Assembly: GCF_014083985.1 (NCBI RefSeq)
Contig: NZ_CP046907.1
Location: forward strand, 5,156,501-5,220,500
Direction of reading: 5' to 3'
DNA from: Streptomyces sp. SCUT-3
GTDB taxonomy: Bacteria; Actinomycetota; Actinomycetes; Streptomycetales; Streptomycetaceae
DNA: 64,000 nucleotides
The first letter of the stretch is position 1. The number at the start of each line of letters is the position of its first letter. Below the pieces are notes generated by a model. That model was not told the origin of the DNA. It saw only the letters and a list, made by a program, of their open reading frames with translations, and made no database searches. Made by a program: the position numbers and the translations under genes. Shown one piece after another: positions 49,019-51,726 of the stretch.

Positions 49019-50302
49019 TCAGCAGACGCCGTCGCCCGGCTTGGGGTTGGCCAGGCCGAACAGCGGGCGCAGCCGCAGGCCGGCCCAGGTGCCGAGCAGG
49101 GCCACCGCCCCCCAGATCCAGCCGTGCAGGCTGCCGGAGGCGATCCCGGCCAGGTAGGCGCCGATGTTGCAGCCGCCGGCCATCCGCGCGCCGATCCCCA
49201 TCAGGACGCCGCCGACCACCGCGGCCGCCGCCGTGCGCCCGGGGACGGAGCGGCGCAGGGCCCAGGTGCCGCCGAGGGAGGCGGCCACCGCGGCGCCGAC
49301 CATGATGCCGATGTTCGTCAGGCTGGTCTTGTCGGCGAGCACCGGACCGGCCAACTGGGCGGCGCTGTCCGGCCGCTGCCAGTACGACCAGCTCTCCGGG
49401 TGGCCGCCCAGGGCGCCCACCAGCTCCGAGCCCCACAGCGCGAAGGCGCTCGTGACGCCCCAGGCGCCGCCGGAGACCAGCAGGACGCCCGCGCCGAGCA
49501 CCGCCAGGGCGACGGCCCCCGCGGCCAGGGGCCAGGAACCGCGCAGGACCCGGGCGGCTCCCCGGACGGAGGGCACCGGACCGGTCGGCGGGGGGTTGCG
49601 GCGGGCCTGGACGACGCGGCTGACCACCACGACCAGCCCCAGGGCGAGGAGGGTGACCGCCCACGAGCCCGCCCAGCCGATCCGGTCGGCCAGGACGACC
49701 GGCTCCAGGGCGGGCAGGCCGCTCCACAGGTCGAACTGCCAGGCCGCCAGGGTCGACCCGGCGACGAAACCGCCCAGCGTCAGGACGACCGCGCCGTGCC
49801 CGGAGCCGACGTTGAACAGCGTTCCGGAGGCGCAGGCCCCGCCCAGCTGCATGCCGACCGCGAACACGAAGGCGCCGACGACCAGGCCGACGCCCAGCGG
49901 GCCCGCCGAGGGGGCCGGGGCCGAGCCGAACAGACCGGTGCCGGTGCCTATGACCAGGGCGAAGAGGGTGGCGGTGGTGCCGAGCAGCAGCGCGTGGGCC
50001 CGCAGGCCGGTGCCGTTGCCGACGGCCACCAGCTGCCGCCAGGCGGAGGTGAAGCCGAACCGGGAGTGGAAGAGGGCCACGCCCAGGCCCAGGCCGAGCA
50101 GCAGCAGGACGGCCGGCTTCGTGCCGTGCGCGGACCACACGTACGCGGTGAGGCCCGCGGCGAGCAGGCCCGACACGGCCAGCGGACCGCGCCGCACGGG
50201 CGGGGCGGGAGGCGCCGCCGGGCGGGGCGCGGACGTGGGGGAGGGGGACAGCAGGGCGGCGGGCGCGCGCGGCGGCGCCCCCGCAGGGGGTGCGGTGGTC
50301 AC
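49019..50302 (-). CDS. YeeE/YedE-family (TsuA-type) sulfur-compound transporter
   Basis: 427 residues with about ten hydrophobic helices arranged as two pseudo-symmetric halves. Both signature loops are present: GGACASGTLFNVGSGH and MAGGCNIGAYLAGIAS with GSLHGWIWG; their cysteines match those that bind thiosulfate in TsuA. Likely imports thiosulfate or a similar sulfur anion. GTG 50302 with GGAG six bases before is preferred over the longer open frame. A cysteine-containing leader peptide lies 130 bases upstream on the same strand. Confidence 0.88.
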   Translation of the reverse strand: MTTAPPAGAPPRAPAALLSPSPTSAPRPAAPPAPPVRRGPLAVSGLLAAGLTAYVWSAHGTKPAVLLLLGLGLGVALFHSRFGFTSAWRQLVAVGNGTGLRAHALLLGTTATLFALVIGTGTGLFGSAPAPSAGPLGVGLVVGAFVFAVGMQLGGACASGTLFNVGSGHGAVVLTLGGFVAGSTLAAWQFDLWSGLPALEPVVLADRIGWAGSWAVTLLALGLVVVVSRVVQARRNPPPTGPVPSVRGAARVLRGSWPLAAGAVALAVLGAGVLLVSGGAWGVTSAFALWGSELVGALGGHPESWSYWQRPDSAAQLAGPVLADKTSLTNIGIMVGAAVAASLGGTWALRRSVPGRTAAAAVVGGVLMGIGARMAGGCNIGAYLAGIASGSLHGWIWGAVALLGTWAGLRLRPLFGLANPKPGDGVC

Positions 50303-50431
50303 GGAAGAACTCCGGCAGGTGTCGGGGCGGGAACGGCTGGACGCCGGGGGAAGAGGGCAGGGCGCCGGGGACGGCACCGGGTGCTCGTGTCGCGGACCGG
50401 CGACGCGTCGGGGCGACGGGCCGGTGACGGG

Positions 50432-50515
50432 TCAGCGGCGACAGAGGCCGTCGTCGACGCACCAGGCGGAGTTCGCCATCAGGGCCAGGCACAGCAGGCG
50501 GGCGGGTGCGGACAT
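50432..50515 (-). CDS. Cysteine-containing leader peptide, probably controlling the sulfur transporter
   Basis: 27 residues from ATG 50515 to TGA 50432: MSAPARLLCLALMANSAW, then CVDDGLCRR. Three cysteines (9, 19, 25) and the CRR end. No Shine-Dalgarno; TACTGT (plus-strand 50528-50523) ends seven bases before the ATG, so it appears leaderless and thus the first codons of the mRNA. The 129-base G+C-rich spacer to the transporter GTG can form several hairpins. Position, leaderless start and late Cys codons are those of a cysteine-sensing attenuator; function is inferred. Confidence 0.6.
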   Translation of the reverse strand: MSAPARLLCLALMANSAWCVDDGLCRR

Positions 50516-50579
50516 GCGGACGACAGTAAACGGAAATGCGTGGGCGATGCACCTTTGGTCCGCGATGCGGACGGCGTGG

Positions 50580-50781
50580 TGAGACGGCGCGTGCCGCCGG
50601 GCCGCCGCACCGCCCTCCGCGGCGGCCCGGCGAGGCGGCGCGGCGGCGGGGCGGCGGGGTTCTCGGACGGCGCGGCGGCGGGGCGGTGCGGTGGCGCGGC
50701 GGCCTTGAGATGCGGCGGTGCGACGGCGCGGCGGTCCCGGGATACGGCGGTCCGGCGGTCCCGGGGCGCGGCGGGGCGGGG
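50580..50781. repeat. Low-complexity GGC/CGG-rich tract
   Basis: About 200 bases of imperfect GGCGGC, GCGCGGCGG and CGGCGGTCCCGGG repeats between the leader-peptide promoter and the exonuclease stop. No gene, promoter or hairpin stands out. Probably slippage-prone spacer. Confidence 0.6.
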
Positions 50782-51726
50782 TCAGGGACGGTCGCGCAGA
50801 GCGGTGAGCAGGCGCTCCAGGGAGCCGCCCAGGCCCCAGCGCCCGGCCAGCGCCTCCAGTGCCTCCGGATCGCGGGGCTCGCGGGGCAGCGTCGCGTCGA
50901 GAGCGGGTACGGGGACGTCCAGGGCGACCCGTACGACCTTCGGGGCGGCCGCCAGGTACTCCCGCGCGGCCTCGAACTTCGCCCGTTGGGCCTTCGTCAT
51001 CCCCGAGGCCGGGTCCTCGGCGGCTGCCAGGATGCCGGTCAGGTCGCCGTGGGCGGCCAGCAGCTTGGCCGCGGTCTTCTCGCCCACGCCCGCGACTCCG
51101 GGCAGCCCGTCGCTGGGGTCGCCGCGAAGCAGCGCCAGGTCCGCGTAGCCGGGGCCGTCCACGCCGTACTTCTCCCGCAGGAGCGCCTCGTCGGTGCGCT
51201 GCAGGCTGCCCATGCCCTTGAGCGGGTACAGGACCGTGACCCCGCGTGCGTCGTCGACGAGCTGGAACAGGTCGCGGTCGCCGGTGACGATGTCGACCGG
51301 GCCCGGCGCCCGGGCCGCCAGGGTGCCGATGACGTCGTCGGCCTCGTAGCCGGGGACGCCTGCGCGGGCGATGCCGACCGCGTCCAGGACCGCCTCGATC
51401 ACCGGCACCTGGGGGGTCAGGGTGTCGGGCACCTCCTCCTCGCCCGTCGAGCCCTCCTCGCCCGTCGAGCCCTCCGCGACCCGGTGCTGCTTGTAGGAGG
51501 GGATCAGATCCACCCTCCACTGCGGGCGCCAGTCGGCGTCCAGGCAGGCGACCAGCTCGTCCGGTCGGTGCTCGGTGACGAGCCGGGCGACGAAGTCCAG
51601 CAGCCCGCGCACCGCGTTGACCGGAGTCCCGTCCGGAGCCTTCACGGACTCGGGCACGCCGTAGTAGGCGCGGAAGTACAGGCTTGCGGTGTCGAGGAGC
51701 ATCAGACGTCGGGTCACAGCAGGCAT
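50782..51726 (-). CDS. 5'-3' exonuclease (Pol I-type FEN domain)
   Basis: 314 residues, the polymerase-I 5' nuclease domain as a separate protein. Metal-binding acids in LLDTASLYFRAYYG, CLDADWRPQWR (then the RVDLIPSYKQHR arch), YEADDVIGTLA, DIVTGDRDLFQLV; H3TH DNA clamp LRGDPSDGLPGVAGVGEKTA. ATG 51726. Expected to trim primers and flaps. A duplicated EGSTGE stretch (18-bp tandem copies near 51448-51483) lies in the arch loop. Confidence 0.93.
   Translation of the reverse strand: MPAVTRRLMLLDTASLYFRAYYGVPESVKAPDGTPVNAVRGLLDFVARLVTEHRPDELVACLDADWRPQWRVDLIPSYKQHRVAEGSTGEEGSTGEEEVPDTLTPQVPVIEAVLDAVGIARAGVPGYEADDVIGTLAARAPGPVDIVTGDRDLFQLVDDARGVTVLYPLKGMGSLQRTDEALLREKYGVDGPGYADLALLRGDPSDGLPGVAGVGEKTAAKLLAAHGDLTGILAAAEDPASGMTKAQRAKFEAAREYLAAAPKVVRVALDVPVPALDATLPREPRDPEALEALAGRWGLGGSLERLLTALRDRP

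Follow-up and report, generated by a model that had tools for sequence, protein, structure and literature searches.

Transporter, leader and spacer in the window

The window, a 64,000-nucleotide stretch of DNA from Streptomyces sp. SCUT-3, carries on its minus strand a gene for a sulfur-transport membrane protein, preceded by a C-rich spacer and a short leader ORF (Table 1). The transporter matches PF04143 (Sulf_transp) with an E value of 3e-55, which places it among predicted genes of sulfur or cysteine supply, and it remotely resembles TsuA/YeeE chains of solved structure (E = 2e-15). StTsuA from S. thermophila has three relay cysteines (C22, C91 and C293; for their roles see PMC11073785), two of which align with Cys in the window protein. 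The Cys residues of its GGACASG and GGCNIG motifs align with Cys of the solved TsuA chain, but there is no Cys at the position of C22 (SRFGFTS versus GRICFNS). The protein stayed far below the cut-offs of all curated TsuA/YedE models (scores of 74.7 and 41.2 bits where 400 and 645 are required). Because one of the three relay cysteines is unmatched and the curated cut-offs are unmet, 'thiosulfate' is an unsafe label, and 'sulfur-compound transporter' is the safe one as judged from sequence. An initial sequence-only reading of this DNA had named the gene a YeeE/TsuA sulfur transporter, from a family that imports thiosulfate. Its family placement agrees with PF04143 and the remote TsuA/YeeE match, but scores so far below the curated cut-offs do not carry the narrower assignment.

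The leader ORF encodes a peptide with Cys at positions 9, 19 and 25, a hydrophobic N-terminal half and strong amino-acid conservation. No Shine-Dalgarno (SD) sequence was found upstream of its ATG on the minus strand of the window. As the TACTGT element ends only 7 nucleotides before that ATG, a leaderless transcript is well predicted. An exact-pattern search of the same genome returned no second leader of this VDD type. Further upstream, a 5'-3' exonuclease gene on the minus strand has its stop at 50782. Between this gene and the leader promoter lies a perfect inverted repeat (50595-50632) of 14 bp around a 10-nucleotide loop, which may terminate the upstream transcript.

The spacer between the two ORFs had been read as structured, a description that did not survive comparison with shuffled sequences: its fold z was −1.12 (about −1.1) for the spacer alone and −0.1 when the leader and the transporter start were included. 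No intrinsic terminator hairpin with a U-run was found before the transporter in the window spacer, and no U-run was visible in the spacers of relatives. Spacers of the family are 51% C and 29% G; in the part adjoining the SD, C rises to 55% and G falls to 22%.

Table 1. Positions of the leader, spacer and transporter features within the window
Feature	Position	Strand	Detail or basis
PF04143 sulfur-transport membrane protein, YeeE/YedE-like, 427 aa	49019..50302	-	GTG at 50302, SD CGGAG
Transporter translation-initiation region	50285..50314	-	CGGAG SD, GTG, codons 2-6 (GTG ACC ACC GCA CC..)
C-rich spacer, leader to transporter, 129 nt	50303..50431	-	fold z, terminator search
Leader peptide ORF MSAPARLLCLALMANSAWCVDDGLCRR, 27 codons, predicted leaderless, stop included	50432..50515	-	ATG at 50515, TGA 50434-50432; reading and conservation upstream of orthologous transporters
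Cys25 codon UGU	50441..50443	-	most conserved Cys codon across leaders
Leader codons 16-25, antisense to SD/start region, including Cys19 and Cys25	50441..50470	-	duplex z, RNAalifold
Cys19 codon UGC	50459..50461	-	candidate stall site freeing the SD in the window genome; footprint masking
GAACUCCG, codons 14.3-17.1	50467..50474	-	perfect 8-nt complement of SD segment 50307-50314; minimum-energy fold
Hairpin HP1, codon 10.3 to 14.3	50474..50486	-	family form CGCG-CUNUU-CGCG; window 3/4 pairs
-10 element TACTGT (TAnnnT)	50523..50528	-	7 nt from its end to leader ATG

Conservation of the leader and its cysteine codons

A contig scan kept 80 orthologous transporter loci of 323 encoding relatives, mostly from Streptomyces, with one locus each from Pseudonocardia and Actinomadura. 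Enough upstream DNA for a leader count was present at 73 of them, the window included. Counting without the promoter as a filter, we found a leader with the core W-[C/S/D]-VDD-x-L-C directly upstream of the transporter in 69 of the 73. A TAnnnT element ends 6-7 nucleotides before the start codon in every one of these 69 leaders, compared with 2.3% of ATGs in the same DNA. The conservation of leader and -10 element is far beyond chance, and comparison among loci establishes both the conserved peptide and the leaderless architecture, the latter as predicted from the -10 element. The sequence-only reading had proposed a 27-codon, Cys-containing ORF beginning at the first base of its transcript and separated by 129 nucleotides from the transporter. 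The coordinates, the three Cys positions and the spacer length were all borne out, the predicted leaderless start holds for the window element and for its relatives, and the short frames looked for upstream of orthologous transporters are there.

Since the neighbouring genes vary among the loci examined, the leader goes with the transporter; the pair also occurs on a linear Streptomyces plasmid. The spacing between them ranges from 53 to 225 nucleotides among the loci scored and is longer in L078. The leader is absent from four of the 73 loci. One of these, Pseudonocardia nigra L074, has a different ORF, VVLTRRLHVDHCTQRAAACRP, 121 nucleotides upstream of the transporter match. Like the VDD-type leader, it is TAnnnT-leaderless, contains Cys and precedes the same type of transporter, but its sequence is unrelated. 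It resembles another actinobacterial Cys-leader type (R-x-HVD-x-C), and its position suggests that Cys leaders with no relation to one another have come to stand in front of this transporter gene.

Leaders fall into two subtypes, MSAPARLLCLALFANSAWCVDDGLCRR and MFGPARQLALALFAATPWSVDDALCRR. Among 68 leaders V20, D21, D22 and L24 are invariant and W18 is found in 65, while position 19 is Cys in 52, Ser in 12 and Asp in four. Position 25 is Cys in 66, and the other two leaders stop there and retain Cys19 (codon 25: TGT 65, TGC 1, TGA 2). Every leader thus has a conserved Cys codon near its C-terminus, at position 19, 25 or both; in the Ser19 and Asp19 subtypes most leaders have a single Cys. Because at least one Cys occupies position 19 or 25 in every leader and Cys9 is present in just 46 of the 68, Cys9 is dispensable; the notion that all three Cys codons matter is not supported. 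The use of UGU at 65 of the 66 Cys25 codons is among the oddest features of the leader, given that Cys codons in the transporters are TGC 204 times and TGT 3 times (3/207, 1.4%).

Constraint on the leader RNA and complementarity to the transporter start

At synonymous sites, leader codons 10, 11, 14, 16, 20, 24, 26 and 27 vary far less than the codons of matching conserved residues in the transporter, whereas codons 7, 8, 9, 12, 17 and 23 are not frozen in the same comparison. Hairpin HP1 is paired in 98.1% of cells across the leaders, with both-sided changes in three of its four pairs, and none of 500 shuffles matched it. At L017, L046, L064 and the window, Ala11 changed from GCG to GCC and codon 13 changed with it, to TTG or ATG, so that the pair is restored, and the Actinomadura leader keeps the helix with two exchanged pairs. 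By these comparisons, frozen codons and HP1 alike, selection is acting on the leader RNA as well as on the peptide. A second hairpin, HP2 in codons 16-21, is at most a candidate.

We also compared the leader with the start of the transporter. RNAalifold was run on separate alignments of 14 clade A loci and 29 clade B loci, and in both it paired leader codons from about 18 to 25 with the SD of the transporter, its start codon and the first codons that follow, through CUCUG/CGGAG, ACGG/CCGU and GGUG(CG)/(CG)CACC. Plain duplex energies along the mRNA were dominated by G+C, with an unremarkable start region; because they followed G+C in this way, a shuffle control for composition was needed, and complementarity was expressed as z against dinucleotide shuffles of the leader segment. 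It was strongest at −12 to +18 of the transporter start, where the mean z of −2.08 was the lowest of 51 offsets and 82% of the loci had z below −1. At most other offsets mean z stayed within +0.5 to −0.9; only the neighbouring offset at −18 and a peak in the spacer at −36 departed from this range. Start regions of other genes averaged −0.40, and at 45 of 68 loci the leader's own start region ranked within the best tenth. The signal was weak or absent in the Asp19 subtype, in L040 and L047, in Actinomadura L080 and in the window itself (z −0.8). Comparison among loci establishes start-region antisense as a feature of the leader, together with the frozen codons and HP1.

GGAG is preceded by C or U at 67 of 68 loci (C makes up 35% in a rough background set), a base that is therefore able to pair with the G of UGU. 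The choice of UGU at codon 25 has no explanation in start-region pairing. No firm covariation was found in the long-range leader/start helix among the loci examined, and because both strands are nearly invariant, covariation cannot confirm it. The first transporter codons, GTG ACC ACC GCN CC, are nearly fixed in the window (50285-50302) and its relatives. Yet many relatives match the query no earlier than residue 12-42, which is unusual for an N-terminus. Both observations are consistent with constraint at the RNA level.

Two further pairing schemes were set aside. A simple SD hairpin shared by the family was rejected, as single-sequence folds gave the SD a different partner at different loci and masking changed the mean little. 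A helix between the W18-C19-V20 codons and the spacer just before the SD looked compensatory by eye, but own and swapped spacers scored about the same, and clear support came only from the four Asp19 loci.

In the window, GAACUCCG pairs with CGGAGUUC at the SD in the minimum-energy fold of the leader RNA (P = 1.0), an 8-bp helix that the family does not share. The predicted cost of opening the SD falls from 10.8 kcal/mol in the free RNA to 4.3 with a ribosome footprint that has Cys19 in the A site, and stays at 9.9 or 10.2 with the footprint at Cys25 or Cys9. Opening the SD and the start codon together would cost 10.1 kcal/mol in the free RNA and 5.2 with a stall at Cys19. Folding with a masked ribosome had a small mean effect across the family, about −0.5 kcal/mol, and because of this thermodynamics alone is no proof of a switch. 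The earlier suggestion that a stall could expose the transporter start agrees with the complementarity of the leader RNA to the start region and, in the modelled window RNA, with the freeing of the SD by a stall at Cys19.

A proposed cysteine response, its rivals and its relatives

On balance, the leader is probably a cysteine-responsive, leaderless translational attenuator of the transporter. Transcription would start at the A of the leader ATG, so that ribosomes load directly. With enough Cys-tRNA, a ribosome would complete the leader and depart, and leader codons from about 15 to 25 would then pair with the SD and start region of the transporter and keep its translation low. If Cys-tRNA ran short, a ribosome would pause on one of the Cys codons (for most relatives Cys25, here most likely Cys19) and cover the antisense strand, leaving the SD and GTG free. 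Cysteine as the signal, stalling of the ribosome and repression by pairing are the steps that we infer. A more specific version, a family of Streptomyces-type attenuators in which the coding strand of the leader doubles as an antisense lock over the SD, the start codon and the first codons of the transporter, is offered with more reserve, as a possibility somewhat short of even. According to it, the same nucleotides would encode the peptide core and the cysteine-sensing codons and form the repressor RNA, with the sensing codon fixed as the rare UGU.

Control could act on transcription instead, with the ribosome released at the UGA, Rho binding to the C-rich spacer, and a stall altering the exposure of RNA so that polymerase passes. 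Rho-dependent attenuation stays a rival because the family spacer is C-rich (51% C against 29% G, and more so before the SD), and the missing intrinsic terminator also fits it. It leaves without explanation, however, both the complementarity of codons 16-25 to the SD and start region and the near-fixed C or U before GGAG, and the C-rich stretch, lying downstream of a stalled ribosome, would stay exposed; we regard Rho control as unlikely. The invariant V20, D21, D22 and L24, the near-invariant W18 and the replacement of Cys19 by Ser or Asp would suit a nascent chain, SAWCVDDGLC, that arrests in the exit tunnel on a sulfur metabolite, the level of Cys-tRNA not being the signal. Since the synonymous sites of these very codons are frozen too and their RNA is complementary to the start region, pairing can explain why the residues do not vary, and Cys stays at position 25 in 66 of 68 leaders, which makes such an arrest distinctly unlikely in our estimation.

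It is very improbable that translation of the leader merely raises the local supply of ribosomes or couples to the transporter start, with nothing sensed. A boost to downstream translation through reinitiation has been proposed for leader genes (PMC4833913), but spacers that run from 53 to 225 nucleotides in the loci scored, and further in L078, are too long and too uneven to suit coupling, and neither the conserved Cys codons nor the antisense pairing is given a reason. Finally, a strongly conserved peptide whose N-terminal half is hydrophobic could be a functional small protein, in the membrane or as a partner of the transporter, with the RNA features incidental. We give this hardly any credence, in view of the frozen synonymous codons, the covariation in HP1, the rare UGU codon and the natural leaders that stop at codon 24 (L032 and L055).

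The cysteine-responsive attenuator proposed here has relatives in principle. Leaderless, Cys-rich uORFs before cysA2 and other genes in mycobacteria were proposed as the first cysteine attenuators (Shell 2015, PMC4633059), and attenuation that responds to cysteine through contiguous Cys codons was reported by Canestrari 2020 (doi 10.1111/mmi.14498), as cited in PMC9031893 and PMC13236596. Like the window leader, these are leaderless 5' ORFs with Cys codons towards the C-terminus and stand upstream of sulfur or cysteine genes, and as far as those accounts describe the mycobacterial ORFs, they are proposed or reported to work through ribosome speed at Cys codons, similarly to our proposal. In the same accounts the mycobacterial Cys codons are clustered or contiguous and precede cysA2 and other cysteine-metabolic genes. 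By contrast, the present leaders have one to three dispersed Cys (no contiguous Cys codons were found in the window leader), a W-x-VDD-x-LC peptide, a PF04143 transporter downstream, HP1 and start-region antisense. Leaderless leader peptides also precede amino-acid genes in S. lividans (leuL, trpL, ilvL and metL; PMC8079986). They resemble the window leader as leaderless short ORFs in Streptomyces, but none of the eight leaders in that study precedes a sulfur transporter with this peptide, and several were assigned Rho-independent terminators, which the window leader is without. Translational attenuators in which a uORF pairs with the SD until a stalled ribosome relieves the masking are described in principle in PMC13236596, and the same relief is proposed here. 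The difference is that in our case the masking strand would carry the sensing codons and would also pair with the start codon and first codons.

The peptide matched nothing in NCBIfam or Pfam, the leader RNA gave a single line far below threshold in Rfam, and a description of either was not found in the literature searched. The initial remark that this was not recognised as a described family therefore stands, within these searches, for the peptide and the RNA, but not for the principle, as leaderless Cys-codon attenuators are already in print (PMC4633059; Canestrari 2020, to the extent cited in PMC9031893 and PMC13236596). The leader is related in principle to the mycobacterial poly-Cys ORFs, its peptide is unrelated to theirs and its Cys are dispersed, and this version looks new. 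If the proposal is correct, cysteine-sensing leaderless leaders are not confined to mycobacteria but also occur in Streptomyces-type bacteria, where they serve sulfur import, and a contiguous run of Cys is unnecessary for cysteine sensing.

The dual coding of peptide and putative antisense lock, combined with natural one-Cys variants, would provide a compact test of amino-acid sensing by a single codon (UGU). The leaders of L032 and L055 end at codon 24 because TGT became TGA. Both retain CUCUG and Cys19, and L032 also has Cys9; they are natural variants ready for testing. In five loci (L012, L030, L037, L040 and L047) the Cys19 codon is UGU, not UGC, and the transporter start is ATG, not GTG.
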